A stretch of 64,000 nt of DNA from NCBI RefSeq assembly GCF_024721175.1, contig NZ_CP099400.1, positions 1-64,000 of the forward strand, in the 5' to 3' direction. This document shows positions 29,446 to 61,414 of this stretch, one piece after another (positions within the stretch are counted from its first letter, which is position 1; every line of letters starts with the position of its first letter). The stretch comes from Rhizobium sp. Pop5 (GTDB lineage Bacteria > Pseudomonadota > Alphaproteobacteria > Rhizobiales > Rhizobiaceae). Both the position numbers and the translations under genes were made by a program. The notes under the pieces were generated by a model that saw only the letters and a program-made list of their open reading frames with translations, had not been told where the DNA came from and did no database searches.

Positions 29446-29469
29446 CTCGTTTCCTCCAGCGCCGGTTTC

Positions 29470-42704: not shown

Positions 42705-42725
42705 TGCAATCTATAATTAATTGCA
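42705..42725. promoter_or_regulatory. Toxin-antitoxin promoter and dyad
   Basis: TGCAAT-N9-ATTGCA spans a perfect -10 box TATAAT (42712-42717). No good -35 is visible at 17 bp. A dyad over the -10 just before a TA operon is the usual place for antitoxin autoregulation. Confidence 0.5.
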
Positions 42726-42753
42726 TATGATCGCCATCAGCGAGGATATGCCC

Positions 42754-43212
42754 ATGACCCCGGAAACCATCGATCATTCGACCCTCTCCCGCCTTGTCGA
42801 AGCAGGAGCGATCGATGCCGCTCATGTCGTCGGCAAAACCGGCGGCTGGTCCGTCGTCATCCGCTACGGCAAGGCCGAGCGCCCGCTCGCTGCCCAGCGC
42901 AGCCGGCAGGTGCGTGTGTTCAAGCGCATGGATACTTTGGTTTCCTATCTCAAGGATGTCGGCATTTCGCAGTTCGATGTCGATGCGGCCGATTACGCTC
43001 CCGAGACAGCTTCGCGGCCGGATCGGGCTGCCGCGCTGCGTCGGACCCATGAGGCTGCGGAATACGACAAGTGGTTTCGGGAACAGGTCGAGGAAGCGAT
43101 CCGGGAAGCCGATGATCCGAATGCGGTCTGGATTCCACACGAAGTCGTCAAGGAAGAGATGGCGCGCGAACGGGCAGAGCTGCTGGCGCGGCTTAAGGGC
43201 GAGACCAAGTGA
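42754..43212 (+). CDS. Antitoxin-side gene of a ParE-type module
   Basis: A 152-residue soluble protein placed directly before a RelE/ParE toxin gene with a GTGA overlap, so it is most likely the antitoxin. It is longer than usual antitoxins. The N-terminal half (TLSRLVEAGAIDAAHVVGKT, then VFKRMDTLVSYLKDVGISQF) may form the DNA-binding part. The C-terminal part (EYDKWFREQVEEAIREADDP) is the charged helix that typically wraps a ParE toxin. Starts at 42727, 42748 and 42754 are in frame; GAGGA favours 42754. Confidence 0.82.
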   Translation: MTPETIDHSTLSRLVEAGAIDAAHVVGKTGGWSVVIRYGKAERPLAAQRSRQVRVFKRMDTLVSYLKDVGISQFDVDAADYAPETASRPDRAAALRRTHEAAEYDKWFREQVEEAIREADDPNAVWIPHEVVKEEMARERAELLARLKGETK

Positions 43213-43507: not shown

Positions 43508-43975
43508 TTACTGCGCCATCTGCGGCTGTTTCGCCGCCCTTGCCGCTGTCAGTTCGGCGGTGGTGTGGTTCAGGCGGTCGGCCAGTACGCGCATGATTTC
43601 GACTGCCATTTCGGGGAAGTCGCTCAGCAGCTTCAGGAAGTGCTCCTTGCTGATGCGCAGCACTTCGAGTGGGGAGGTGGCCCGCACCGTTGCCGTGCGC
43701 GAGACATCGCAGAGGATGGCGATCTCGCCGACGATGGAGTTGAGCTCGACATCGGCGACTTTGATCTCGCCGGCCGGAGAGGAAACGATGATATCGGCGC
43801 TCCCCGAAAGGATGACATAAGCGGCGTCGCCGACATCGCCCTGATGAAAGAGATCTTGACCGGCCTTGTAGGTCATGCGGTCGGAGGTGAAGGCCAAAAG
43901 CTTGAGTTTCGCCGGCGCAATCCTCGCAAAGATCGGCACCCGTCGCAGCATTTCGACTTCGTCTCTTAACAGCAT
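43508..43975 (-). CDS. Stand-alone cyclic-nucleotide-binding domain protein
   Basis: A 155-residue protein made of one CRP-like cNMP-binding domain plus a C-terminal helix (about 112-140). The phosphate-binding cassette GEIAIL...SRTATV keeps Glu84 and Arg93, which contact the ribose and cyclic phosphate in this family, so binding is plausible. There is no helix-turn-helix, so it is not a CRP-type transcription factor. It probably gates or recruits a partner. It lies 99 bp downstream of the degenerate ABC protein on the same strand. An in-frame ATG at 43999 is an alternative start. Confidence 0.85.
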   Translation of the reverse strand: MLLRDEVEMLRRVPIFARIAPAKLKLLAFTSDRMTYKAGQDLFHQGDVGDAAYVILSGSADIIVSSPAGEIKVADVELNSIVGEIAILCDVSRTATVRATSPLEVLRISKEHFLKLLSDFPEMAVEIMRVLADRLNHTTAELTAARAAKQPQMAQ

Positions 43976-43999
43976 GAGCGTTTTAACCCCCTGCCGCAT

Positions 44000-44074: not shown

Positions 44075-46789
44075 TTACGATAACAGTTCCTTGAACATAC
44101 CGTTTTTCTCGGAAAGCTCCGGATAGTTCCCGGCTTCCGCCAATCCGCCGCGGTCGAAGAGCAGGATCCGGTCGAACATCTCGGCGAGGCGCGCGTTGGT
44201 GAGCACCCAGATGATGGCCGGCCGGTGGCCTTCCTCGTGCAGGCCTTCGATGATGTTGCGGGTGATCTGATCCTGGACACGCTGATCGAGCGCCGAAAGC
44301 GGCCGGTTGAAGATGAAATAGTCCGAGCGCTTCAAGAGCGCGCGGGCAAGATTGAGCTTCTGCCGTTGCACCATGGTCAGCCGCTTGCCGCCTGAACCGA
44401 CATCGAATTCGAGGCCGATCGAAAGTACGTCGTCATAAAGGTCGAGCGCGTCGAAGAGCTCGCCCATGATCGCGCGGATGCGGTCGGAGGCATCGGCCTG
44501 CTGATAGGCGATGCGGCCGAAGAGCACATTGTCCATCAGGCTTGCCGAAGGGGTGAAACGCTCGGCATCGTAGCGCTCGATCAGTTCGGCGAGATCGGCC
44601 GGAATATGCTCGTGGAACTGCTTGCGGGCACTGACGATCTTGTCCATCAGCTCGTTCGTCAACAAGCCGAAGCGGTGGCGCGGTTCGATATAGGCAAAGC
44701 TCAACCGGATGATGGCCGAGCGCTCCTCCGGCGTGGCGTCCTCGAAGCGCCGGCTTTGCAGCTTCTGCAACAGCGCCTGGTAGGTCGGAATGTCGTCCGC
44801 CGTCATGAAGGTCAGCTGTTGGAAGAAGGGATGATCCGGCGGCAGGTCGTGGAAGAGTTCCACGGCGTTCTCGGCGATTTCGAGGCCCATAGCATAGAGG
44901 TCGGTGCTGAGGCCGGTCTCACGGAACAGCTGCTGGAAGTAGGGGTGAGCCGCAAGCCTGCGATTGGTCATCAAAGGCCGCTTCATCGTGCCGAAGAGCA
45001 GGTTTTCGCCAACGGTCGCCTGGGCATTGTAGGCGTCGAAATCGAAAGGCACGACGATGCCGTCGAGACCCTCGTCACGCAGCCGGTCTCGCAACGACGC
45101 GCGCAGCGCCACGACGTGATCGCTGACCGCGACATGCACGTCGGTATTGACGTTCGAGCGCAGCGCCAGGTCGAGGATGTCCTGCGAGATCAGGACGGCG
45201 TCGAGCACCGGGCGGATGGCCTTCAGCAGATCTTCCGGCCCGTTGGCGCCGGCGGCCTTGTAGTCCACCCAGTCGCTGTTGAGGTCGAGTGTCGGATTGC
45301 CAGCCTTCACCGCTTCGATGGAATGCCATTTATATTCCTGCGCTTCCCTCTCGTCGTAGACGGCGTCGGTCATCGGCGCGTGCTTGAGGCCGTAGAGCAG
45401 ATTGCTCGCCAGCGAGCCATGGAAGAAGAAAGTATCGGCCGAGGCATAGGAAATGCGGCGGCCAGTGATCGATTCCGGCAGGTCCAGGAGGTCGCGCCCA
45501 TCAATGGTGATGCGGCCTGAATCCGGCCAGACCATGCGTCCGAGCGCTTCGGCGAAGGCTTCGGCGCCGCTGCCGTTCGGGCCGACGATCGCAACCGTCT
45601 CGTTCGGTTTGATTTCGACCGAGACGTGGTCGACGAGACGCGCGCCGCTGTCGTCGGAGAGTGTCAGGTTGGTGACAACAAGCGCGCTCGTCAGCGCGCC
45701 GACCGGGGTGATCGCCAGTTCCTGGATGCGGCTGTCGATCAACGGCTCGACGTTGAACTGCTCGTAGACCTGCTGGTACTTTACCTGCACGTCCTGGCGC
45801 ATCTGGTCCCAGTCGATCAGTTCCTTGAGCGGACCGGGCAGGTCCTTGTAGGCCGATATGACGGCGACAAGCTGGCCGATGTCGAGTCTGCCCTGCAGCG
45901 CGAGATAACCGCCGATCGCGTAGAACAGGAAAGGCGTGACCTGGGCGAGGAAGTTGTTGATGAACTTCACCAGGAACTTCCACTGATACAGGTCGTAACG
46001 GATCGAGAAGATGCGGCCGAGCCGTGAGGCGATGTCGGCCCGTTCGAGGTTTGATGTGTCGTTGCCGTGTATCGTGCCGATGCCGTCGACGATTTCGCCG
46101 ACGCGGCCGGAAAGCTCGCGCGCGGTCAGCTGCCGCTGGCGGCCGAGATCCAAGAGGCGCTTGCGCATGCGGGGGATGACGACCGCCTGCACGCCGACGA
46201 TGCCGGCGGCGATCATGCCGAGCCAGAAATTTTGTACGATGATGAAGGCGAGCGCTGTGATCGCCTGGCCGCCGAGAAGGGCGGGCGAGACGAAGGCGTC
46301 GCCGGTGAAGCCGCCCATCGGCTCCACCTCGTCCTTGATCATGGTGGCGATCTCAGCCGATTTTACCCGCTTGAAATGGGCGGGCGGGAACCGCAGCACG
46401 CGGTCGATGAGCTCGAAGCGAATGCGGCGCAGCATGCGTTCGCCGAGCCGGCCCTTATAGGTGTTGATGTAGAATTTGAAGAGGCCGTTCAGGACGACCA
46501 GCGTCAGAAACACCAGGCTGAGAGCCATCAGCATCTGGAAGCGGTTGAGCTGCAGACCTTGAAAGAATTCCACATGGCCGATCAGCGGAATGTCGTAGGC
46601 GATATGCATGAAGGTCTGCGTTGCGCCGGGACCTTCGAAGCCATCGCCCTGAATCGGCCCGTTGACGATCTGCTTCGGCAGGTCGAAGGACAGGAAGTAG
46701 GGAATCATCGAGGCGGCGACGACAGCCAGGATCCACAGCTGCTGCAGCCGCGTGTTCTTCCAGATGTAGCGGGCGAGGCTTTTTTCCAT
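44075..46789 (-). CDS. ABC-exporter-like protein with inactivated, expanded ATPase domain
   Basis: A 904-residue protein with a type-IV exporter membrane domain (six segments within about 15-310) and a C-terminal ABC domain in which every catalytic motif is altered: Walker A GPNGSGAEA (Lys to Ala, 403-411), Q-loop YASADTFFF (no Gln, 448-456), signature LTMVQ (804-808), Walker B YFIFNRP (Asp-Glu to Asn-Arg, 828-829) and the switch His to Asn865. Between Q-loop and signature about 330 residues are inserted, against about 70 normally. The fold-defining SALD D-loop is kept. The reading frame is intact, so it is a conserved pseudo-ATPase rather than a decayed gene. Three glycosyltransferase genes lie upstream. 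Confidence 0.88.
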   Translation of the reverse strand: MEKSLARYIWKNTRLQQLWILAVVAASMIPYFLSFDLPKQIVNGPIQGDGFEGPGATQTFMHIAYDIPLIGHVEFFQGLQLNRFQMLMALSLVFLTLVVLNGLFKFYINTYKGRLGERMLRRIRFELIDRVLRFPPAHFKRVKSAEIATMIKDEVEPMGGFTGDAFVSPALLGGQAITALAFIIVQNFWLGMIAAGIVGVQAVVIPRMRKRLLDLGRQRQLTARELSGRVGEIVDGIGTIHGNDTSNLERADIASRLGRIFSIRYDLYQWKFLVKFINNFLAQVTPFLFYAIGGYLALQGRLDIGQLVAVISAYKDLPGPLKELIDWDQMRQDVQVKYQQVYEQFNVEPLIDSRIQELAITPVGALTSALVVTNLTLSDDSGARLVDHVSVEIKPNETVAIVGPNGSGAEAFAEALGRMVWPDSGRITIDGRDLLDLPESITGRRISYASADTFFFHGSLASNLLYGLKHAPMTDAVYDEREAQEYKWHSIEAVKAGNPTLDLNSDWVDYKAAGANGPEDLLKAIRPVLDAVLISQDILDLALRSNVNTDVHVAVSDHVVALRASLRDRLRDEGLDGIVVPFDFDAYNAQATVGENLLFGTMKRPLMTNRRLAAHPYFQQLFRETGLSTDLYAMGLEIAENAVELFHDLPPDHPFFQQLTFMTADDIPTYQALLQKLQSRRFEDATPEERSAIIRLSFAYIEPRHRFGLLTNELMDKIVSARKQFHEHIPADLAELIERYDAERFTPSASLMDNVLFGRIAYQQADASDRIRAIMGELFDALDLYDDVLSIGLEFDVGSGGKRLTMVQRQKLNLARALLKRSDYFIFNRPLSALDQRVQDQITRNIIEGLHEEGHRPAIIWVLTNARLAEMFDRILLFDRGGLAEAGNYPELSEKNGMFKELLS

Positions 46790-49368: not shown

Positions 49369-50577
49369 CTATTCTGCGCCGACGACGGCAAGGTGGCTGC
49401 CGCGGCTGTCGAGCCAACGGCCGACGGTCTGCGAAATATGGTCGAGCCCCTCGAGGCGCATATTGCTGCCGGTCTTCGACGGCGGCAAGCGGGAGGGCAG
49501 GCGCTTCAGCGCCTCGGCCATAACAGTGGGATCGACCGACTGGTCCGGCAGCAGCATGTCGACGAGGCCGAGTTCGCTAGCGCGCTGGGCGCGCAGCAAC
49601 TGCTCCTCGCGCGGCTTGACGCGCGGCACGATAAGCGCGGGTTTATCGAAGGAGAGGATCTCGCAATAGGTGTTGTAGCCGCCCATGGCGACGACGCCGG
49701 TAGCGCCGGCGATCAGCTCCTCCATATGATTGTCGAACTCGATCACCTCGATATAGGGAATGGCTTCCCCCTTCTGCACCAGCTTGGCGCGCTCGGCGGC
49801 CGGCATATAAGGCCCGAGCACGACGAGCGCTTTCTGCGTCAGAGTCGGATCGGCCTCGTAGGCGTTCAAGACGTCGTGGACGAGATCGGAGCCGTCGCCG
49901 CCGCCGCCTGTCGTGACGAGCAGGTAATTGTCCTTGCGGGCGTTGATCGAACTTTTGCCCTTGGAGACGCTGCGCTGAAGGAAGCCGACGAAATCCATCT
50001 TCCGGCGCAGGCTGGCCGGTACGTCGAGACCAACAAGCGGATCGTAGAAGTCAGGCGGACCGTAGACCCAGACACTGTCATAATATTGGTCGATCTTCTG
50101 CATGATGCTGTTCTTCTTCCACTCGGCTTCGAGCAGATGCGGCGCATCCATGATCTCGCGCAGGCCAAGCACCAGCACGGTGCCGCGGGCCTTGAGGTAG
50201 GCGAGCGTATCCTCGACCTCACCCTTCAGCCCCATCGGTTCCTTGTCGACGATGAAGATATCGGGCTGGAAGGTCTCGGCCGTGTGGCGAATGCTCGATT
50301 CGCGCATCTTCAACGTCTCGTGCAGGTCGATGTGGCTTGCGAGCGACGTATATTCGCCGTTGCGGAGCTTGATGACGCTCGGGATCTTCACGAAGTCGAC
50401 ACGGGCGCGGTAGTCGAAGGCGCCGGCGATCGTCGCACCCGAAATGATGAGGATGTTGAGGCCGCGATAATCCTCGACCAGCGCATGGGCGATGGCGCGA
50501 CAGCGGCGCAGGTGGCCGAGACCGAAAGTGTCGTGGCTGTACATGAGGATGCGTGCATCTTCGAGACGTCTGGCCAT
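49369..50577 (-). CDS. MurG-like glycosyltransferase, first gene of the cluster
   Basis: A 402-residue GT-B protein with an N-terminal GFGLGH-type loop (YSHDTFGLGHLRRCRAIAHAL) and a C-terminal donor-site region VAMGGYNTYCEILSFDKPAL followed by PRVKPREEQLLRAQR. The ATG at 50577 follows AAAGGGAAC; earlier in-frame starts at 50619 and 50604 look unlikely. It resembles the third transferase of this cluster, suggesting two related sugar-transfer steps flanking the GT4 step. Confidence 0.85.
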   Translation of the reverse strand: MARRLEDARILMYSHDTFGLGHLRRCRAIAHALVEDYRGLNILIISGATIAGAFDYRARVDFVKIPSVIKLRNGEYTSLASHIDLHETLKMRESSIRHTAETFQPDIFIVDKEPMGLKGEVEDTLAYLKARGTVLVLGLREIMDAPHLLEAEWKKNSIMQKIDQYYDSVWVYGPPDFYDPLVGLDVPASLRRKMDFVGFLQRSVSKGKSSINARKDNYLLVTTGGGGDGSDLVHDVLNAYEADPTLTQKALVVLGPYMPAAERAKLVQKGEAIPYIEVIEFDNHMEELIAGATGVVAMGGYNTYCEILSFDKPALIVPRVKPREEQLLRAQRASELGLVDMLLPDQSVDPTVMAEALKRLPSRLPPSKTGSNMRLEGLDHISQTVGRWLDSRGSHLAVVGAE

Positions 50578-50673
50578 AGGCGTTCCCTTTGGGGTGACGA
50601 ACATAGTTAGCACCCCCACCGTCCGGAGGCCACGAGGCGGGGGCGATGCCGGGAGGCGCCGCCGAGCTTCCCG

Positions 50674-51846
50674 CTATTTGTAGGGATCTGCCGCATCACG
50701 CAAGCCGTCTCCCAGAAAGTTGAACGCCAAAATGACAAGAACAACAGGAATGATCGGATAGAGCAGCCATGGATAGAAGGCGATGACGCTGACGCTTTTG
50801 GCTTCGGTCAGCAGAATGCCCCAGCTGGTGATCGGCGGACGAAGGCCGAGGCCGAGGAAGGAGAGCGCGGTCTCGCCGAGGATCATGCCCGGGATCGAAA
50901 TCGTCGCCGAGGCAATGAGATGCGACATGAAGCCCGGCACCAGATGCCGCCCGATGATGCGCGGCGTGCTGGCGCCCATCAGCTGTGCCGCCTGTACGTA
51001 ATCCTCTTCGCGCAGCGCGAGCAGTTTGGAGCGCACGGCGCGCGCCAGCCCGGTCCAGTCGATGATGCCGAGGATGACGGTGATGCCGAAATAGATGACG
51101 ATCGGGCTCCACGTCACCGGCATGATGGCAGCAAGCGCCATCCACAGCGGCAGGCTCGGCAGCGATTGCAGCACTTCGATCAGGCGTTGGACGATGAGAT
51201 CGAAAACGCCGCCCCAATAACCGGCAAGGCCGCCGATGACGATGCCGAGCACGAAGCTGATCGAAATGCCGATGAGGCCGATCGTCAGCGATATGCGCGC
51301 GCCATAGAGGATGCGCGAGAGCACGTCACGGCCGAGCCGGTCGGTGCCGAGCAGGAACATCTGTCCGCCGACCGCCGGGCAGACGAGATGATAGTTCGAG
51401 GCGACGAGCCCCCAGAACCTGTAGGAATCGCCGCGGCAGAAGAAGCGGATCGGCTGTACATCATTCGGCTTGTCGGCATAGACGCGGCGCAGCGTATCGA
51501 TATCGAGCGTCATGCTGCGGCCATAGACGAAGGGACCGACGAAGTTGCCCTTGTCAAAGAAATGGACAGTCTGCGGCGGGGCATGGATGTAATCGACATT
51601 GCGCGTGTGCAGGCCGTAGGGCGCCAGGAACTCGACGATCAGGATCATCAGGTAGACGGCGGCAAGAAAGATGCCGGAGGTCAAGGCCAGCCGGTGCTGC
51701 TTGAACTTCCACCACATGAGCTGCTTCTGCGAGGCGAGATGGATGCGCGATTGCGCCGCCGTCATGGTCTCGGTCGCGTGCGGGTCGAAAGGGGCGGTCG
51801 AGACGTAGTGGGGAAGCGGCGCGCCGGGTGCGGGAAGGGGCGACAT
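50674..51846 (-). CDS. Peptide-type ABC importer, permease 2 (DppC/YejE-like)
   Basis: A 390-residue permease with a long N-terminal extension, then a membrane segment near 55-75, a periplasmic domain, and the permease core containing LLGTDRLGRDVLSRILYGARISL and the coupling EAA loop REEDYVQAAQLMGASTPRII. It is the last gene of the four-gene importer operon; its ATG overlaps the upstream permease stop as TAATG. Confidence 0.92.
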   Translation of the reverse strand: MSPLPAPGAPLPHYVSTAPFDPHATETMTAAQSRIHLASQKQLMWWKFKQHRLALTSGIFLAAVYLMILIVEFLAPYGLHTRNVDYIHAPPQTVHFFDKGNFVGPFVYGRSMTLDIDTLRRVYADKPNDVQPIRFFCRGDSYRFWGLVASNYHLVCPAVGGQMFLLGTDRLGRDVLSRILYGARISLTIGLIGISISFVLGIVIGGLAGYWGGVFDLIVQRLIEVLQSLPSLPLWMALAAIMPVTWSPIVIYFGITVILGIIDWTGLARAVRSKLLALREEDYVQAAQLMGASTPRIIGRHLVPGFMSHLIASATISIPGMILGETALSFLGLGLRPPITSWGILLTEAKSVSVIAFYPWLLYPIIPVVLVILAFNFLGDGLRDAADPYK

Positions 51847-52844
51847 TATTTGGTGCTCCTGCCTTGCAGACGGATGCGGGGATCGAGGAAGCCGAGCGCG
51901 ATGTCCGAGATAAGCACGCCGATGACGTTGAGGAAGGCGAGGAACATCAGGAAGGAGCCTGCGAGGTACATGTCCTGGCTTTGCAGCGCCTTGATGAGCA
52001 TCGGTCCCGTCGTCTCGAGCGACAGGACGATCGCGACGATTTCGGCGCCCGAGATGATCGATGGCAGGATCGAGCCGATATCGGCGATGAAGAAATTGAG
52101 CGCCATGCGCAGCGGATATTTGACCAGCGCCCGCATCGGATGCAGGCCCTTGGCGCGGGCGGTCGTCACATACTGCTTCTGCATCTCGTCGAGCAGATTG
52201 GCGCGCAGCCGCCGGATCATGCCCGCCGTTCCCGCCGTGCCGACGATGATGACCGGGATCCAGAGATGCGCCAGGATCGACTTCGCCTTCGCCCAGCTCA
52301 TCGGCTCGTTGAGATATTGCTGATCCATCAGATGGCCGATCGACAGCCCGAACCAGACATTGGCGAAATACATCAGGATCAGCGCCAGCATGAAGTTCGG
52401 AATGGCAATGCCGAGCAGGCCGAGGAAGGTCAGCCCGTAATCACCCCAGCTGTACTGGTGCGTGGCCGAATAGATGCCGATGGGGAATGCGATCAGCCAG
52501 GTGAGCAGAATCGTCGTGAAGGAGACGAGGATCGTCAGCCACAGGCGGTCGCCGACCACGTCGGAAACCGGCAGCTGATATTCGAAGGAATAGCCGAAGT
52601 CGCCATGCAGCATGCCGCCGACCCAGTAGAAATAACGCACGATTTCCGGCTTGTCGAAGCCGTATTGCTGGCGCATCTCCTCGATTTCCTGGAGATTGGC
52701 CGTCTCGCCGGAGGCGCGCAGCTCGGCGATCTGGCTCTCGAAGAAGTCGCCCGGCGGCAGTTCGATGATGGTAAAGACCAGCGCCGAAATGACGAAGAGG
52801 GTCGGCACCATGGCGGCGATGCGCCAGAGAATATATCTGAGCAC
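51846..52844 (-). CDS. Peptide-type ABC importer, permease 1 (DppB/YejB-like)
   Basis: A 332-residue permease with six membrane segments and the coupling loop DEMQKQYVTTARAKGLHPMR. I start it at GTG 52844, which follows AAGGAGG at good distance and gives the normal DppB N-terminus (MLRYILWRIAAMVPTLFVIS); a longer open frame upstream is only the shadow of the binding-protein gene. Two bases separate it from the upstream stop. Confidence 0.92.
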   Translation of the reverse strand: MLRYILWRIAAMVPTLFVISALVFTIIELPPGDFFESQIAELRASGETANLQEIEEMRQQYGFDKPEIVRYFYWVGGMLHGDFGYSFEYQLPVSDVVGDRLWLTILVSFTTILLTWLIAFPIGIYSATHQYSWGDYGLTFLGLLGIAIPNFMLALILMYFANVWFGLSIGHLMDQQYLNEPMSWAKAKSILAHLWIPVIIVGTAGTAGMIRRLRANLLDEMQKQYVTTARAKGLHPMRALVKYPLRMALNFFIADIGSILPSIISGAEIVAIVLSLETTGPMLIKALQSQDMYLAGSFLMFLAFLNVIGVLISDIALGFLDPRIRLQGRSTK

Positions 52845-52846
52845 GC

Positions 52847-54754
52847 CTAGGCCTCCTTGTACCAGAATGTATCCGGCATGTAGATGCCGAGATAGGAGGT
52901 GGGATCGAAGCCGTAGAGCGCTTTTTCGGGCAGATTCTGCAGCTTGGCAGATCGAAGGATCGGCTGCAGCGTGGCGTTGATGAGGCCGATCGAGAAGACC
53001 TGCTGCGTATAGAGCGACAGCATCTTGTGCCAGATCACCTGACGTTCCTCGAATTTCGCCGTCGAACCCCATTGGCCGAGCAGATCGACCAGTTCGGCCG
53101 CTTCCGGCAGGTCGGGCGCCGCACCTTCCTGGCCGGCGGAGAGGTAATGCATGCCCCAGAGCGGCCATTGCAGCTGATCGTCGAGCGTCGGTGCAAGTCC
53201 GGAGGGCGACATGTCGGCCGTCGGCACCCCGTTGTCGAGGCCGTACCAGATCGACATCATGATCGTGCCGCTCATGGCGCGGTTGCGGAAGACATCGCGC
53301 TGCGAGGTGCGGGTATAGAGCGCAAGGCCGATATTGGCCCAGTGATCGTGCACCAGCTCCAGCACGTCGGTATCGAGGTTGCTCTCGCCTGCGGTCTCGA
53401 CGGTGATCTCGGCGCGTCGCCCGTCCGGCAGCAGCCGGATGCCGTCATCGCCGCGCTTGGCCAGGCCAAGCTCGTCGAGCAGGCGGTTGGCCTCGTCGGG
53501 ATCGAATTTCACGTAGGCGTCGGCATACTCCTGTCTAAAGAGGGGGCTGTCGGGCAGAACGGTATCGGCGCTTGGCGTGCCGAGGCCGTAGAAAGCGACC
53601 ATGTTGATCTCGTGCCGATCGATCGCCAACGAGAGCGCCCGGCGCAGGCGCACGTCGCGGAACAGGCCGCGCCACACCTCGTCGGCGCAGTTGAGGTTCG
53701 GCAGCAGCGTGATGCGCGAGCCGCGCGCGACCTTCCAAAGATTGACCTTCACGGGGAAACGCTTCTCGGCCTCCTTCAGGAAGGTGTAGTCGTTGAAATC
53801 GATGCCGGTCGCCTGCAGATCGGCTTCGCCGGCCCCCGCCTTGGCGGCAATGATCGACGAGGAGGAGACATTGAGAATGAATCGGTCGAGATAGGGAAGC
53901 TGCCTGCCGGTTTCGTCGACGCGATGGAAGAACGGGTTTCGATCGAAGACGAACTGCTCGGACGGCAGCGGCGTCGTATTGCGCCAGGGATCGAGCGTCG
54001 GCAGGTTCGGATTCTCAGGGCGGTAGGACCGCGCCATCTTGATATGCAGGTCCTGCCATTTTTTGACGCGGTTGGCCTGCATCATCTGTTCCATTTTCGC
54101 CTGGTCCGGCTGGAACTTCTTGTGGAACTGCTTGAGATAATGCGCCGGCCCGACGATGACGAGCGGTATGGGACCTGCCAAGGTCGGCAGGAACATCGGG
54201 TTGGGTTTTTCCCAGGTGTAGCGCACGGTCAGCGGATCGAGCATTTCGAAGCGCGGGAGCGCGCCGTGCGGGCGAAGCTCCAGCGCGCCGCCGCCGGGCG
54301 TCAGCTTGTCGTTCAGGATGACGTCTTCCCACCAATAGCGAAAATCGTCGGCCGTGAACGGCTCGCCGTCGGACCATTTATGGCCGTCGCGCAGCGTGAA
54401 GGTGAAGACCGTATCGTCCTCGGAATGGAAATCGGCCAGGATATCGGGCTGGAACTGCAGGTGCTTGTCATAGCCGACGAGACGGGCATAGCCGTAAATC
54501 GTCATGAAACGTATGTCGCGCTGGCCACCGATGATGGTGCGCACGGTGCCGCCATAGGCGCCAGGCTCGAGCCCCATCTCCTTCAGGTTGACGATGCGCG
54601 GACGGGTGGGAATGCGCTCGGCCATCGGCGGCAGGCTGCCGGCGGCGAGCCGCTCCTTGAGGAATTCCGGTTCGACGGCCTGTTGGGCCCGAAGCACCGT
54701 GGGCGCGATCGCAGCACCCACGAGGCCGCCGAGGAAAGTGCGACGCGTCACCAT
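52847..54754 (-). CDS. Peptide-type ABC importer, substrate-binding protein
   Basis: A 635-residue family-5 (SBP_bac_5) binding protein. It opens with a Tat-like signal (TRRTFLGG at 3-10, hydrophobic core, cleavage near LRA-QQ), so it is exported folded. The family stretch TFTLRDGHKWSDGEPFTADDF is present. Such proteins bind peptides, opines or some sugars; the ligand here is unknown. The ATG overlaps the ATPase stop as TGATG. Confidence 0.92.
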   Translation of the reverse strand: MVTRRTFLGGLVGAAIAPTVLRAQQAVEPEFLKERLAAGSLPPMAERIPTRPRIVNLKEMGLEPGAYGGTVRTIIGGQRDIRFMTIYGYARLVGYDKHLQFQPDILADFHSEDDTVFTFTLRDGHKWSDGEPFTADDFRYWWEDVILNDKLTPGGGALELRPHGALPRFEMLDPLTVRYTWEKPNPMFLPTLAGPIPLVIVGPAHYLKQFHKKFQPDQAKMEQMMQANRVKKWQDLHIKMARSYRPENPNLPTLDPWRNTTPLPSEQFVFDRNPFFHRVDETGRQLPYLDRFILNVSSSSIIAAKAGAGEADLQATGIDFNDYTFLKEAEKRFPVKVNLWKVARGSRITLLPNLNCADEVWRGLFRDVRLRRALSLAIDRHEINMVAFYGLGTPSADTVLPDSPLFRQEYADAYVKFDPDEANRLLDELGLAKRGDDGIRLLPDGRRAEITVETAGESNLDTDVLELVHDHWANIGLALYTRTSQRDVFRNRAMSGTIMMSIWYGLDNGVPTADMSPSGLAPTLDDQLQWPLWGMHYLSAGQEGAAPDLPEAAELVDLLGQWGSTAKFEERQVIWHKMLSLYTQQVFSIGLINATLQPILRSAKLQNLPEKALYGFDPTSYLGIYMPDTFWYKEA

Positions 54755-56643
54755 CAGCGCAACTCCTTGGCATCGGCGCCTTTGCGGGCGCGCACCAGAT
54801 GGCCGTCGCCTAAGTCGGCATAGGCAAGCTCGGAGGCGTCGTCATGCTCGGCGGTGAAGGTCTTGCCCCAGTTCTGCTTGTCGGCGGCTCCATTTTTCCG
54901 GAGCGCCTTGAAATCGAGCGGCCGGTCGAGATCGGGGAAGGGGACGGCGGCGAGCAGCGATTTCGTATAGGGGTGCACTGGGTCGCGCAGGATGATCTCG
55001 CGCGGGGCGATTTCGACGATCCGGCCCTTGCACATCACAGCGATGCGGTCGGCCATGTAATCGACGACGGCGAGATTGTGCGAGATGAAGAGATAGGTCA
55101 GCCCCAGCTCCTTCTGCAGGTCCTTCAGCAGGTTGAGGATCTGCGCCTGGACGGAGACATCGAGGGCCGAAACCGGTTCGTCGAGAATGACGAGCTTAGG
55201 CCCGAGCGCCAGAGCGCGCGCGATGCCGATGCGCTGGCGCTGGCCGCCGGAAAAGCTGTGCGGATAGCGGCTGAGATAACGCTTGTCGAGGCCGATCGCA
55301 CCCATCAGGCCCTCGACCTTGCGCTTGCGCTCGGCGCTGTCGCCGCGGTCGTGGATCTCCAGGGGTTCGCTGAGGATGTTGCGCACCGTCATGCGCGGCG
55401 AAAGCGAGGAGACGGGATCCTGGAACACCATCTGGATCTTGGTGCGCATTTCCTGGAGTTCGGCACCTTTGACGGAAAGCACGTCGATCACGTCCTTGCC
55501 GTCGTTGAACACGACCGCGCCGTTATCAGGCGTGATGGCGCGCATCAGGATCTTGCTGAGCGTGGTCTTGCCGCAGCCGGACTCGCCGACCAGGCCGAGA
55601 CATTCGCCGCGGCGGATGTCGAAGCTGACGTCGTCGACGGCGTGCACGACGGCGGCTTCCTGCTTGCCGAGGAAGCTCCGCTTGCGCGTTCTGTAGGTTT
55701 TCGAGAGATTGGCGACCGAAAGCAGCACGCCCGGCGCTTCCGCCTGCACCGGCTTCTTCTTGCCGACGAGCGTTTCGAGATTGACCGGCACGTCGCGCAG
55801 CGCCTTCAGCCGCTCGCCGGGCCTCATGTCAAAATGCGGAACGGCCGCCATCAGGGCCTTGAGATAGGGATGCTGCGGATTGCGGAAGATCGCCTCGACC
55901 GGCCCCGCCTCCATGATCTCGCCGTGATAGATGACGACCACCTCGTCGGCCATGTTGGCGACGATGCCGAGATCGTGAGTGATCAGCAGCATCGCCATGC
56001 CGAGCTTGGCCTGCAGGTCGCGGAGCAATTCGAGGATCTGCGCCTGGATCGTCACGTCGAGCGCGGTCGTCGGCTCGTCGGCGATCAGGAGCGCCGGCTT
56101 GCAGATCAGCGCCATGGCGATCATCGCGCGCTGGCGCATGCCGCCTGACAATTCGAACGGGTACATGTCGTAAGTGCGGCGCGGATTGGAGAAGCCGACG
56201 AGCCCGAGCATCTCCTCGGTCCTTGCTCGTGCTTCCTGCTTGTCGACGTCAGTATGGATCAGCAGGACTTCGCTGATCTGGTTACCGACCGTATGCAGCG
56301 GCGAGAGCGAGGTCATCGGCTCCTGGAAGATCGTCGCCATGCGCTTGCCGCGCAGATCGCGCATCTCCTCGCTGTCGCGCGGCAGCGACAGGATATCGGT
56401 GGCGCTGCCGTCGAGCGGATCGGTGAAGAGGATGCGGCCGGAGGCCTTGGCCGGATTGGGCAGGATGCCCATGACGGACTGGCTGATCACCGATTTGCCG
56501 GAGCCGGATTCACCGACGAGAGCGGTGACTTTACCCGGAAGAATGCGAAGATTGGCTTCCTTTACGACGCGCAGCCGGTCGCCGAAAACCGAAAAGGAGA
56601 CGTCGAGATTTTCAATACGCAACAGATCTGCCGCAGACGCCAT
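54754..56643 (-). CDS. Peptide-type ABC importer, fused dual ATPase (DppD-DppF/YejF-like)
   Basis: A 629-residue protein with two ABC domains in one chain. Domain 1 has GESGSGKS (about 43-50), LSGGMRQR and [12 protein letters not shown]. Domain 2 has [24 protein letters not shown] and [12 protein letters not shown]. Both carry the C-terminal oligopeptide-transport extension ([12 protein letters not shown] and [12 protein letters not shown]). It powers the two permeases downstream. It is the first gene of the operon. Confidence 0.94.
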
Positions 56644-56798: not shown

Positions 56799-58142
56799 TT
56801 ACTGGATGAATTTCTCCATGCTTGTCTGCTTGACCTGTTTCTTGGCGTCGCGATGCAGAAGAATGACCTGTTCGGCTTCGGAGAGCCCGTTCTGCTCGGC
56901 GTCGCGGAAGCTTTCGTCGACATTGATCTCAGGCGCCGGTGCGCGCGGCTGCAGCACCGTCACTTTCTGGCGGATGCCGCGCAGCTTCTCTTCGCCGAGC
57001 GTTGTCCATTCGCCGCCGCAATAGCCGGCGAAGGCCTGGCTGGCGACGACCTCGCGACCGTATTTCTTGGTCAGGACCTGCAGTCGCTGCACCTCGTTGA
57101 CCGCCGATCCGAAGGCGGAGAAGGTCAGGCGGTCCTTAAGGCCGACATTGCCGAACATGACGTTGCCGACATGCAGGCCGATGCCGTAGCCGATCTTGCT
57201 GAGGCCCTTCTGCTCGCGGTCGTTGTTGAGCTCGGCGACCCGCGCCCGCGCCTGATGCACCGCCGAGAGTGCGGCCTCGCAGGCGATCTTCGACGGGTCC
57301 TTGTGACGCCCGCACGGATAGACGGCAAGGAAGCCGTCGCCGAGGAAACTCAGGATCTCGCCACCATTGCGGTTGAAAGGGGCAGCGATCGCGTCGAAAA
57401 ACTCGTTCAGCGTGTCGATATAGGCCTGTCGGCCTTCCTTTTCGGCATACATTGTGGATTCACGCATGTCGCCCATGACGAGCGCGGCGCGGATCGTTTC
57501 GCCATCGCCGCGGCGGATCTGGCCGTTCAGTACCCGCTTGCCGGCATCTCCGCCGAGATAGGTGGTCAGCATGTTGTTGGCGAGCTTGCCGAGCACCGCC
57601 ATCTTGGCGGCGACCGCCAGATGGTCCTGCATCCTGAGCAGCGCATCGATCATGTCGTCGGTAAAGCCGTTGTGATGGTCGGTCGACCAGGATCCCATCA
57701 TGCCCTGCACGGAACCGTCGCCGAAGGGCTGCACGAAGGCGAGGTAGTCGGTGATGCTGTCCTTGCGCAGATCCTCGAAGATCGGGAATTCGTTTGGCCC
57801 GTCCTGCATCAGCCGGCGGCGGATGTGCTGCAGGTTGTTGTCGAGGAGGTAATAATAAGGGCTCTGCAGGAAGCGGTCCGGCTTCTGGCCGGCGGGCATG
57901 CGGAAGCCTTCGATGGTGACGCCGCTGGCGCGCCGCCAGGTGAAGCTGAGCGCATCGTAGAGCGGATGCAGCATCGAAAAACTGAGATGAACGCGCGCGA
58001 TCGGCAGGCCTGCGGCAGCGATCCTTTCGCAGAAGCCACGCACGATGTTTTCAAGATCGTCTCCCGCAAGCGAAGAGTTCGTCAGCCATTCAGCAACCCG
58101 GTCCAACAGGATGGAGGACACGCTGGATTCGATCGTGCTCAT
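56799..58142 (-). CDS. Class III adenylate/guanylate cyclase domain protein
   Basis: A 447-residue soluble protein. The N-terminal half (about 1-190) looks like a sensory GAF-type domain. The catalytic domain (about 215-390) keeps both metal aspartates, Asp225 in GDMREST and Asp269 in FLGDGFLAVYP, and the transition-state Asn349 and Arg353 in GSAVNEVQRL. The residue that usually reads Asp before that Asn (GDxVN) is Ser346, so purine choice or activity may differ. The ATG at 58142 has GAGGA upstream at a slightly long distance. It may supply a cNMP to the binding-domain protein at 43.5 kb. Confidence 0.87.
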   Translation of the reverse strand: MSTIESSVSSILLDRVAEWLTNSSLAGDDLENIVRGFCERIAAAGLPIARVHLSFSMLHPLYDALSFTWRRASGVTIEGFRMPAGQKPDRFLQSPYYYLLDNNLQHIRRRLMQDGPNEFPIFEDLRKDSITDYLAFVQPFGDGSVQGMMGSWSTDHHNGFTDDMIDALLRMQDHLAVAAKMAVLGKLANNMLTTYLGGDAGKRVLNGQIRRGDGETIRAALVMGDMRESTMYAEKEGRQAYIDTLNEFFDAIAAPFNRNGGEILSFLGDGFLAVYPCGRHKDPSKIACEAALSAVHQARARVAELNNDREQKGLSKIGYGIGLHVGNVMFGNVGLKDRLTFSAFGSAVNEVQRLQVLTKKYGREVVASQAFAGYCGGEWTTLGEEKLRGIRQKVTVLQPRAPAPEINVDESFRDAEQNGLSEAEQVILLHRDAKKQVKQTSMEKFIQ

Positions 58143-58516
58143 TCTCGGTATGATCCTCATAAGGCACGCCATCCCCAAGAGCCAAAAGTCCCTCGGCCGG
58201 CACATTTTCATGCGCAGGACACAAGGAAATCAGGATGTACGAGCGGTATTATTGTGTCAACGATCTGCCGAGAACCCGGCAGCGGCGCCCCCAGCTCTCC
58301 GGTCGGAGATCGGATGGGCAGTCCTTTCATGATGGTTCATTATCAAAAGTCAAAATAGGGATGCTGCAAATGCGAAACAATGGGAGCGTCATCTTTTTGT
58401 GCTGCGAAGTTGCAGCAAAAGCCGGCCCCGAGTCATTTCCGCCACACCCGGCTAAGGACCTTGTCCATTGATGTCCGGGAAATCCGCAAAACCAGGTCGT
58501 CATCTGGCTGCCGCTT
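58143..58516. other. Intergenic region upstream of the cyclase gene
   Basis: About 370 bp on the left of a 630-bp gap. It must contain the cyclase promoter on the minus strand. I find no supported gene. The right part of the gap is a repeat element. Confidence 0.45.
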
Positions 58517-58775: not shown

Positions 58776-60128
58776 TTGAAAGATCCCGTCTTGGCCAGCC
58801 CCTCCTTCGATACGCTCTCTCGGAAGATCGAAACCCGCACGGCGCGTGCCGGCATCATCGGGCTCGGCTATGTCGGCCTGCCGCTGGCGATCGTGGTGGC
58901 GCGCAGCGGCTTTGCGGTCACCGGCTTCGATATCGATCCCGGGAAGATGGTGGCGCTCGATGCGCGCCGCTCCTATATCGATGCGGTGAGCAACGAGGCG
59001 CTTTCGGCCGAGATCGATGCGGGCCGCTTCAAGGCGACGACCGATTTCGCCGGCCTTGCCGACTGCGACGTCATCATCATCTGCGTACCGACCCCGCTCA
59101 CCAAGCATCGCGATCCCGACCTTTCCTTTGTCGAGGCGACATCGCGCTCGATTGCCGCGCACTTGCGCCCCGGTCAGCTTGTCGTGCTGGAATCGACTAC
59201 CTATCCCGGCACGACCGATGATGTGGTGAAGGTCATTCTCGAAGGCACCGGCCTGAAATCCGGGTCGGATTTCTTCGTCGGCTTCTCGCCGGAGCGCGAA
59301 GATCCCGGCAACCAGCACTATCACACCGCCACGATCCCGAAGGTCGTCGCCGGCGACGGCGCCGAGGCGCTGTCGCTGATGAAGGCCTTCTATGGCGCGG
59401 CGGTTTCGACGGTCGTTCCGGTTTCCTCCAATGCGACGGCCGAGGCCGTGAAGCTCACCGAGAATATCTTTCGTTCGGTCAATATCGCGCTCGTCAACGA
59501 GCTGAAGACCGTCTATGTGGCGATGGGCATCGACGTCTGGGAAGTGATCGACGCGGCCAAGACCAAGCCCTTCGGCTACATGCCCTTCTATCCCGGCCCC
59601 GGCCTCGGCGGCCATTGCATCCCGATCGATCCCTTCTACCTGACCTGGAAATCGCGCGAGTACGAGTTGCCCACCCGCTTCATCGAGCTGGCCGGCGAGA
59701 TCAATTCGGCGATGCCGCGTTATGTCGTCGGCAAGCTCGCCGAAGCGCTCGATATTCGCGCCGGCAAGGCGCTGAGCCGCAGCCGGGTGCTCGTACTCGG
59801 GCTCGCCTACAAGAAGAACGTCGCCGATATAAGAGAAAGCCCGTCGCTGCGGCTGATCGAAATCATCGAGGAACGCGGCGGCCGGGCCGACTATCACGAT
59901 CCCTTTGTCGCCGAGATTCCGCCGACGCGCGAATACCAGGCGCTGAAAGGCCGCAAATCGGTTGCGCTGACGCCGGAGGCCGTTAGCGGCTATGACGCGG
60001 TACTGGTCGCGACCGACCACGACAAGGTGGATTATGCTGCGCTCGTAAAAAGCGCTTCCCTGATCGTCGACACGCGCAACGTTTTCAACCGGCTCGGCCT
60101 CTCGGCCGATCACGTCATCAAGGCGTGA
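58776..60128 (+). CDS. Nucleotide-sugar dehydrogenase (UDP-GlcNAc/UDP-glucose 6-dehydrogenase family)
   Basis: A 450-residue NAD-dependent enzyme that oxidises a UDP-sugar at C6 to the uronic acid. The Rossmann motif GIIGLGYVGLPLAIVVAR (about 26-43), VLESTTYPGTT, and the catalytic Cys281 in GGHCIPIDPFYL identify it; the sequence is closer to WbpA/TviB-type enzymes than to UDP-glucose dehydrogenase Ugd. No ATG is near the 5' end; TTG at 58776 or, with GAAAGA upstream, TTG at 58791 is the start. Its 3' end overlaps the convergent DUF3095 gene by 11 bp. It could feed the glycosyltransferases. Confidence 0.9.
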   Translation: MKDPVLASPSFDTLSRKIETRTARAGIIGLGYVGLPLAIVVARSGFAVTGFDIDPGKMVALDARRSYIDAVSNEALSAEIDAGRFKATTDFAGLADCDVIIICVPTPLTKHRDPDLSFVEATSRSIAAHLRPGQLVVLESTTYPGTTDDVVKVILEGTGLKSGSDFFVGFSPEREDPGNQHYHTATIPKVVAGDGAEALSLMKAFYGAAVSTVVPVSSNATAEAVKLTENIFRSVNIALVNELKTVYVAMGIDVWEVIDAAKTKPFGYMPFYPGPGLGGHCIPIDPFYLTWKSREYELPTRFIELAGEINSAMPRYVVGKLAEALDIRAGKALSRSRVLVLGLAYKKNVADIRESPSLRLIEIIEERGGRADYHDPFVAEIPPTREYQALKGRKSVALTPEAVSGYDAVLVATDHDKVDYAALVKSASLIVDTRNVFNRLGLSADHVIKA

Positions 60129-61293
60129 CGGAAACAGCCGAGAGCGACTTGCCGGTCATCCGGCTTGCGGCCACCGCATAACCGCCGGCGGCGCCGTCGA
60201 TGAAATGCATGTGGTCGCGCGAAATCGGCGTCGGCACGAAGCAGGTCATCAGCGCCGAGTTCTGCCGATGCAGGCCGTAGCGGGCAATGCCTTTCGCCTG
60301 TGCCTCCTGCAACAGCGTCTCGATCCGTTTCAGGTGGTCGGCGTCGACGTCGACCGTCATCTTCAGCCCGTCGTCGAACTTGCGGAAATCGGAATTGTCG
60401 GCGACGTCGCGCTTGTAGCGGCGGGCGTCGAACTTGCCGAGCGGAATGCCGAGCTTGTGGAGCAGGACGGTAAGAGCGACCTGCAGGAAGATGAAGAGCT
60501 TCTGGCGTAGGCGCCGGCCGGCGGGCGCCGTGGCCTTTGCCTCGCGGTTGATGCCGTGCAGAGAGAAGGCAAAGTCCGGGCCGTCCGCCGGCACTGGATG
60601 ACTGCCCCGGTTCTGCTCGGTCGTGATGGCGACGATGCCATTGACGAGGTCACGAAATTCCTGGCCCGGCCGGCCTTCGCCCGGCACGGCGATGATCGAA
60701 ACGATCTCGCCGTTGCGCGCCTCGATCGGGCTCCAGCGGCAGGAGAGGCCAGTGAGATCGGGGCGTGTTCCTGCGGCAGCGCGCTCGACGGCGTAACGGC
60801 CGAGCTTCATCTGTTTTTCCGCCCAGCTGGTACCGCCGCCCCAGAACATCGCATAGGTAACGTGGGGGCTTGCCGAGTAACGTGCGACGCGCACGTCGAG
60901 GCCCTGGGCGCGGGTGTCTGCGACGGGAACGATGGCGATGCGCAGCATCAGGTTCAGATCTTCCTCGACCCAGACCTGCACAGCGGCGAGTGCGGCGCGT
61001 GCCGGCTGCTCCAGCGAACCCGGAAGTGCGATCAGCGCGCCGTCGCCGCCGAAGACGAAGGGATAGTCGCCCTTGCCGACGGCATTCAAGACTGCGGAGA
61101 TGACGCTGGCCCCCGCCATGTTGACGTCCTTGTAGCGGCCGCCGGCAATCGCCTGCGTCGAGCCGACGATGTCTGCGAGCGCCAGCACCCAGCCGTCCGG
61201 CAGCGGCCGGTAGTTGGCGGCATCGGTCACGCCTTCGAACGCGCTGAAGAGCGGCACGTCGGCAAAAAAGTCTTCGTCAGTCACGGTTTTCAT
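60118..61293 (-). CDS. DUF3095 protein, adenylate-cyclase-like
   Basis: A 391-residue soluble protein of the DUF3095 family. The N-terminal half has a class III cyclase-like core: ALADIVGSTQAI with Asp41 and FVFGGDGALIALP with Asp84, the positions of the two metal aspartates, and a central GGTSWAEKQMK region. The C-terminal half is family-specific. Whether it makes cAMP has not, to my knowledge, been settled. The ATG at 61293 follows CTGGA. The 3' end overlaps the sugar dehydrogenase gene by 11 bp. Confidence 0.8.
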   Translation of the reverse strand: MKTVTDEDFFADVPLFSAFEGVTDAANYRPLPDGWVLALADIVGSTQAIAGGRYKDVNMAGASVISAVLNAVGKGDYPFVFGGDGALIALPGSLEQPARAALAAVQVWVEEDLNLMLRIAIVPVADTRAQGLDVRVARYSASPHVTYAMFWGGGTSWAEKQMKLGRYAVERAAAGTRPDLTGLSCRWSPIEARNGEIVSIIAVPGEGRPGQEFRDLVNGIVAITTEQNRGSHPVPADGPDFAFSLHGINREAKATAPAGRRLRQKLFIFLQVALTVLLHKLGIPLGKFDARRYKRDVADNSDFRKFDDGLKMTVDVDADHLKRIETLLQEAQAKGIARYGLHRQNSALMTCFVPTPISRDHMHFIDGAAGGYAVAASRMTGKSLSAVSVTP

Positions 61294-61414
61294 GTCATCC
61301 AGCTTAGCACAGACCCACCGCGCCACTGCAACGCCAATTCCCATTTACGGCAATCGACTTGGCAAGGTTTCAGTGTTAGCACGCTCAACGATTTTCATGA
61401 CGGATACGGATTAG

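Follow-up and report, generated by a model that had tools for sequence, protein, structure and literature searches.

In the first 64,000 nucleotides of the Rhizobium sp. Pop5 contig NZ_CP099400.1 (hereafter, the window), a minus-strand gene at positions 44075..46789 encodes a 904-residue protein, here called pABC for pseudo-ABC exporter, that combines the architecture of an ATP-binding cassette (ABC) exporter with a complete loss of the ATPase motifs. All pABC features given below lie on the same strand. Residues 1-345 (45755..46789) form a transmembrane domain with the six-helix ABC_membrane fold (PF00664), the most conserved part of the pABC family, and are followed by an ABC nucleotide-binding domain (NBD, PF00005), as in other type I ABC exporters. 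The pseudo-NBD consists of a first half (residues 365-475, 45365..45697) and a second half (residues 746-904, 44078..44554). Nine catalytic positions were scored, covering the Walker A Lys, the Walker B Asp-Glu, the Q-loop Gln, the signature Ser-Gly-Gly, and the switch His (at alignment column 864). None of the nine is intact in pABC, which therefore lacks the hallmarks of a functional ABC ATPase. The degraded motifs are GPNGSGAEA at Walker A (residues 403-411, 45557..45583), YASADTFFF at the Q-loop (residues 448-456, 45422..45448), LTMVQ at the signature (residues 804-808, 44366..44380), YFIFNR at Walker B (residues 824-829, 44303..44320), and VLTNARL in the switch region (residues 862-868, 44186..44206). 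Despite this motif loss, the ABC fold is complete in the predicted structure. An earlier inspection of the letters without database searches (the sequence-only reading) had described exactly this, an open 904-codon frame with every ATPase motif lost and the exporter membrane domain and ABC fold kept, and both parts of that description hold. Curated models place pABC outside the named exporter families: its best NCBIfam score, 182.8 bits for MsbA (TIGR02203), falls far below the cut-off of 602, as do those for NdvA/ChvA (130.5 against 733 for PRK13657 and 98.5 against 585.4 for TIGR01192). The nearest relative of the pABC membrane domain in the host genome (L063:8172-9146, plus strand, contig C5; 29% identity) is a 324-residue product that has an ABC_membrane domain but lacks an NBD, and was excluded from the family counts.

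The pABC NBD is also enlarged. An insert of about 270 residues between the Q-loop and the signature (residues 476-745, 44555..45364) carries an extra copy of a helical-subdomain unit, and the unit that follows the Q-loop in ordinary exporters (compare ENICYG) appears three times in the pABC sequence, as NLLYG (residues 463-467, 45389..45403), NLLFG (residues 596-600, 44990..45004), and NVLFG (residues 754-758, 44516..44530). The Asn of the first copy is kept in 103/106 rows, and N596 and N754 of the other two are invariant in all 106. Profile comparison of the repeat segments with hhalign gave probabilities of 92% (copies 1 and 2), 95% (1 and 3), and 98% (2 and 3), against values under 1% in 15/15 control comparisons with other parts of pABC. 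The arm that normally couples the NBD to the membrane domain may have become an enlarged platform. A PADLOC match to mad3 (30.5 bits, residues 712-880) lies partly in the second half of the ABC domain and was taken as shared ABC sequence. The insert, like the cyclic-nucleotide-binding partner and the cluster of glycosyltransferase and nucleotide cyclase genes described below, goes beyond what the sequence-only reading had reported.

Age of the motif loss and selection on the gene

The family was sampled through three protein searches, from which the best 120 of 3415, 2890, and 4053 matches were scored, and through 105 family loci (25 loci from 20 genomes and 80 further records), giving 465 rows, in which six sequences occur identically in both the protein set and the locus set. 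No row retains more than six of the nine residues, so that orthologues with intact motifs, the case that the sequence-only reading had named as its own refutation, are absent from the best 120 rows of each protein search and from the 105 loci. By comparison, 11 ordinary exporters have all nine residues (8 proteins) or eight of them (3). Among the 120 near homologues listed (75-98% identical to pABC), 118 keep none of the nine and the other two a single glycine. Across the 105 loci, the Walker A Lys is kept in 5, the Walker B Asp in 8 and Glu in 6, and the switch His in 2, with a maximum of five of nine per locus. The 120 Stappiaceae-type proteins listed have Lys replaced by Arg in 119 and retain the Walker B Asp in 118, Glu in 27, and the switch His in none, and the 120 fused relatives of Thalassospira/Rhodospirillales type listed keep the Walker A Lys in 110, the Walker B Glu in 98, and again no switch His. 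Judged from these sequences, the ATPase loss is ancient and graded, and the "graded replacements" of the sequence-only reading are found at the level of the family.

A quick tree groups all members into a single clade against the 11 ordinary exporters (SH-aLRT 100), although the program flags long branches. It was found at E<1e-20 in 25/299 Pseudomonadota genomes, all of the same class as the window, and its known range covers Alphaproteobacteria, four sampled genomes of another class, and contigs of metagenome-assembled genomes labelled Granulosicoccus. Five loci (L050-L054; family f2, genus g7) represent a divergent subfamily with degraded motifs and no cyclic-nucleotide-binding partner, and four of the five genomes lack the glycosyltransferases described below.

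The gene evolves under purifying selection. The ratio of nonsynonymous to synonymous substitution (dN/dS) over the whole gene is 0.03-0.16 in seven pairs of the window gene and an orthologue, with 0.02-0.08 in the membrane domain and 0.02-0.24 in the NBD pieces, the higher values being rough because they come from simple Nei-Gojobori counting, in which dS reached 1.6 for some of the pieces. For the motif codons alone, the most distant pair gives 0.37. An open frame was found in all 18 of the orthologues used for codon counting and at 105/105 family loci. The sequence-only reading had argued for a selected role rather than decay and had proposed dN/dS as a check; the ratios, the open frames, and a loss common to the 120 nearest homologues listed all agree with it. 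The pattern of conservation is moreover the inverse of that of ordinary exporters. Mean identity in 60 family rows, a set that omits three rows of the divergent subfamily, is 54% in the membrane domain and 33% in the NBD, against 22% and 44%, respectively, in 22 ordinary exporters. In 1769/1770 family pairs, identity is higher in the membrane domain than in the NBD, compared with 2/231 pairs of ordinary exporters. Selection has moved, preserving the membrane domain and not catalysis.

The cyclic-nucleotide-binding partner and the glycosyltransferase cluster

A gene encoding a 163-residue protein (43508..43999, minus strand) begins 75 bases downstream of the pABC gene. The protein has a cyclic mononucleotide (cNMP)-binding domain (PF00027, 69.9 bits) with the Gly-Glu/Arg phosphate-binding cassette VGEIAILCDVSRTATVRA; PF00027 is its sole Pfam match at E<=0.01, and no DNA-binding domain, including a helix-turn-helix of CRP/FNR type, was found in its 163 residues. 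The cassette residues are strongly conserved (Gly 92/92, Glu 85/92 with Asp in six, Arg 92/92), which predicts a capacity to bind cyclic nucleotides; the cassette was preserved while the ATP site decayed. A homologue adjoins the family gene in 91/105 loci and is fused to its C-terminus in seven more. The remaining seven comprise the five loci of the divergent subfamily, one truncated where its contig stops (L144), and another in which none was seen (L140). All 120 Rhodospirillales-type rows list PF00027, which their search query carried too, and 47 of the 120 also list GGDEF (PF00990), a domain seen again in P0281; 48 of the 49 fused chains longer than 1140 residues lack the GGDEF motif. These 47 rows (P0274-P0361) present two dead catalytic folds, the pseudo-NBD and a GGDEF-fold tail that mostly lacks the GGDEF motif, around one intact-looking cNMP site. 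Paralogues with fused cNMP domains also occur together in one genome (L056, L059, and L061) and in another (L057 and L060), with unrelated neighbours that, for L056 and L057, read as folC- and carboxylase-like genes.

Upstream of pABC, also on the minus strand, lie three glycosyltransferase genes, encoding a protein with a GT28 C-terminal domain (PF04101; 46949..48130), a GT4-type, EpsE-like enzyme (PF00534; 48112..49359), and an MJ1255/VC2487-like protein (49369..50619) that served as the marker GT661, so named after TIGR00661. All three are linked to the family gene in 64/105 loci, as far as the flanking DNA extends. In the sample of 299 Pseudomonadota genomes, two glycosyltransferase queries at E<=1e-20 match an identical set of 25, and the family and both glycosyltransferases occur together in 21 (Fisher p 1.6e-24, kinship not corrected). 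This co-occurrence is more than mere linkage, since several genomes (G247, G083, where the distance is about 80 kb, G067, and G167) carry the cluster and the family gene at clearly separate places; in G115, which has two copies of the family gene, some 19 kb lie between the cluster and one of them, and in G297 contig ends might adjoin.

The pABC family alternates with intact exporters in this cluster. A second sample, 321 genomes of another class searched with GT661 at E<=1e-40, yielded 14 carriers, one already in the first sample, for a total of 38 marker genomes, and 25 of these possess the pABC family. In the other 13, no family member was found anywhere at E<=1e-10, and 11 of them show an intact ABC exporter within the cluster and no cNMP gene in view. 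These 11 slot exporters measure 588-641 residues, one of them corresponding to the C-terminal portion of a longer frame of 914 codons, and have nine of nine residues intact in seven cases and eight in four. Conversely, no ordinary exporter (frames of 450-800 residues) was found in the family-linked glycosyltransferase loci examined, and none was seen in two sets of glycosyltransferase clusters (six and four) of family-bearing genomes. Two ordinary exporters do occur near family genes, both at loci without linked glycosyltransferases.

The same minus-strand run of genes extends further, in the order class III cyclase, OppDF, SBP_bac_5, OppB, OppC, the three glycosyltransferases, pABC, and the cNMP gene. 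The OppC-type permease (50674..51846), OppB-type permease (51846..52844, start set by homologues), SBP_bac_5 solute-binding protein (52847..54754), and OppDF-type double ATPase (54754..56643) make up a complete importer dependent on a solute-binding protein, which in our reading resembles the Yej-type importers for peptidoglycan recycling in Rhizobiales (PMC9790009). The cyclase (PF00211) is encoded at 56799..58211 and a DUF3095 protein, a recurrent neighbour of the module, at 60118..61344, both on the minus strand. The latter carries ADIVGST and FGGDGALIALP, which resemble the metal and substrate motifs of class III cyclases, and no mention of DUF3095 was found in the open PMC literature. Other neighbours in the 105 loci include divergent polysaccharide-deacetylase-like proteins (47 loci), OppB (44), metallo-beta-lactamase-fold proteins (39), cyclases (38), and DUF3095 (23), in flanks of 9 kb that would leave a cyclase placed as in the window outside many Rhizobium loci. 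The 2.01 Mb of flanks contain 51 cyclase matches, where the density in the host genome (24 Pfam matches in 6.74 Mb) would predict about 7; since the detectors differ, a profile built from eight cyclases, five of them from the loci themselves, for the flanks and Pfam for the host genome, and the loci are related, this surplus is a description and not a test. Two more class III cyclases are encoded just past the window, one with a Cache sensor domain (C3:69438-71354) and one with a 2Fe-2S domain (C3:72466-74184), and are followed by a GT4-like gene and a deacetylase-like gene. On the other side of the module, a plus-strand frame of 163 residues (42721-43212) has no Pfam match; in related plasmid records, the features under the matching stretch include one annotated as a RelE/ParE family toxin. 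Some 16 kb separate the glycosyltransferases from an ordinary pair of adjacent half-exporter genes (about 27600-31100, minus strand; loci L004 and L006, with frames of 640 and 643 codons), which was left out of the cluster. One of the pair has a changed first signature glycine and the other lacks the Walker B Glu, which suggests a heterodimer with one degenerate site.

Proposed role and alternative explanations

The slot in the cluster, the inverted conservation, and the partner gene make a membrane domain that still does an exporter's work the simplest reading. We favour, with a confidence of about one half, a role in which pABC fills the exporter or flippase slot of a glycan system with three cytoplasmic glycosyltransferases, without ATP hydrolysis and under cyclic-nucleotide control. 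A pABC homodimer would most likely provide the route through the membrane, or a receptor, for a glycan that is nascent or bound to a lipid. Hydrolysis of ATP would not be needed, the drive possibly coming from glycan elongation or from an ion gradient; flippases of the MurJ and Wzx types are likewise driven without it. The adjacent cNMP protein would hold or switch the enlarged cytoplasmic pseudo-NBD and would answer the cyclases encoded in the same region. A more specific version is distinctly more speculative. In it, cyclic-nucleotide switching would have taken over from ATP in the exporter fold, a cNMP-binding subunit or fused domain acting with the enlarged, catalytically dead NBD to gate the glycan path, and the cyclase would set the rate of export. 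Among the roles offered by the sequence-only reading (scaffold, sensor, or flippase-like assembly factor), the genomic context favours glycan export under cyclic-nucleotide control and leaves both passive translocation and scaffolding standing.

Several observations weigh against a glycan-export role. None of the three glycosyltransferases is present in the flanking DNA of 39/105 loci, and four genomes of the divergent subfamily (G271, G143, G028, and G151) carry the family protein without the glycosyltransferases or a cNMP partner. In G004 and G026, both glycosyltransferase queries strike a single gene. Among the 13 genomes without the family, no exporter is visible in G026 or in G490, where the contig ends within the region. 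The fused relatives that retain the Walker A Lys may, to judge from this residue, still bind ATP, and a different, unrecognised flippase may do the transport. Finally, a quick tree does not place the intact slot exporters as sisters to the family; it used 45 rows, chosen from 74 after dropping eight long-branch or divergent rows, and its outgroup did not fall on one side of any branch. The same slot thus need not mean the same job, and we do not claim descent of the family from the slot exporters.

The most serious competitor, possible and less probable than export, is that pABC is a membrane scaffold or receptor without transport, its membrane domain anchoring or sensing and its pseudo-NBD gathering the glycosyltransferases and the cyclic-nucleotide sensor. 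The dead ATP site fits such a role, as does the signalling-like build of the Rhodospirillales-type chains, which join the membrane domain, the pseudo-NBD, a cNMP domain, and in some cases a mostly motif-less GGDEF domain. The lower conservation of the enlarged cytoplasmic domain relative to the membrane domain is likewise compatible with scaffolding. Against it, the strongest constraint falls on the membrane domain, and intact exporters occupy the slot in related clusters.

Rivals that restore ATP hydrolysis fare worse. Each composite ABC site takes its Walker motifs from one half and its signature from the other, so that pABC, devoid of both contributions, would break the two sites with any partner and regain no standard site by pairing with an ordinary half-exporter as in TM287/288 or TAP. 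A heterodimer of this kind is therefore improbable, even though heterodimers with one degenerate site are common (PMC7756269) and the host genome encodes many ordinary exporters; as said above, none was seen in the family-linked glycosyltransferase loci examined. Slightly less probable still is an unusual ABC ATPase that hydrolyses ATP with non-standard residues. The complete predicted fold and the D-loop Asp, kept in 94/106 rows, would agree with it, but nine of nine catalytic residues are replaced by others that drift between clades, unlike a new fixed active site, and the NBD is less conserved than the membrane domain.

An anti-phage signalling system of the Pycsar kind, with a cyclase and a cyclic-nucleotide effector, is very improbable. 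PycC models are matched by the window cyclase with up to 57.9 bits, and PycTIR and PycC models by the cNMP protein (62.5 and 34.4 bits), but these matches lie in the shared cyclase and cNMP domains. Pycsar effectors carry a TIR or membrane domain on the cNMP-binding protein itself, whereas Pfam shows neither TIR nor any other effector domain there, and the module recurs in many genera accompanied by glycosyltransferases. Motif loss alone could mean decay, but the open frames at all 105 loci, the dN/dS of 0.03-0.16, and the equal losses in the 120 nearest homologues listed lead us to reject a recent mutant, pseudogene, or sequencing artefact as having a negligible probability.

Comparison with known systems

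We found no prior description of the pABC family or of its module in the open PMC literature (subscription journals and preprints fell outside the scope of the search), and the database name "ABC transporter ATP-binding protein" borne by many family entries is misleading. The flippases MsbA and PglK-Wzk share with pABC the half-exporter fold and the glycan gene context, but pABC differs from them by its dead ATP site, its insert of some 270 residues, and a cNMP domain that is either fused or encoded separately. In peptidoglycan synthesis, the ABC flippase Wzk is reported to be able to take the place of MurJ (PMC4990322), so that one slot can be served by flippases of either ABC or non-ABC type. 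Degenerate-site exporters, including TM287/288, TmrAB, TAP, and ABCC proteins, resemble pABC in having noncanonical catalytic residues under selection. In these exporters, one composite site is competent (PMC7756269), whereas pABC loses the Walker and signature motifs in one half, so that neither of its sites can be standard.

CFTR and SUR1/SUR2 also put the ABC exporter fold to non-pumping work, as pABC would, and the structural matches of predicted pABC include SUR2A/SUR2B chains, together with many pumps. CFTR and SUR come from eukaryotes, have retained nucleotide binding, and possess one good site; unlike in these proteins, the nucleotide partner of pABC appears to be a separate cyclic-nucleotide-binding protein. 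Polysaccharide machines controlled by cyclic diguanylate (c-di-GMP), such as BcsA-PilZ, Alg44, and PelD with its degenerate GGDEF domain, provide a parallel for a second messenger acting on a glycan membrane machine, extended by the motif-less GGDEF domains of some fused pABC relatives. In contrast with them, pABC is associated with a cyclic mononucleotide domain instead of PilZ and has the fold of an ABC exporter, not that of a synthase or co-polymerase. The module suggests direct cyclic-mononucleotide control of a glycan machine in rhizobia and their relatives; rhizobial cyclases are many and, to our knowledge, mostly without known targets. CyaC of Sinorhizobium meliloti is a redox-responsive adenylate cyclase, and cyclases that similarly combine 2Fe-2S and PF00211 domains recur near the module (L047, L143, and C3:72466-74184 of the host); a term search of the CyaC study (PMC10463352) found no mention of ABC, glycosyltransferase, or polysaccharide.

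Pseudo-ABC folds with one degenerate site are known already (PMC7756269). One good ABC site normally remains, whereas the pABC family dismantled the motifs of a half-exporter stepwise and its membrane domain became the most conserved part. The resulting natural series of working, Lys-only, and fully dead proteins makes it possible to study whether the membrane domain of an ABC protein can move glycans when no ATP is hydrolysed, and by what means it is then controlled.

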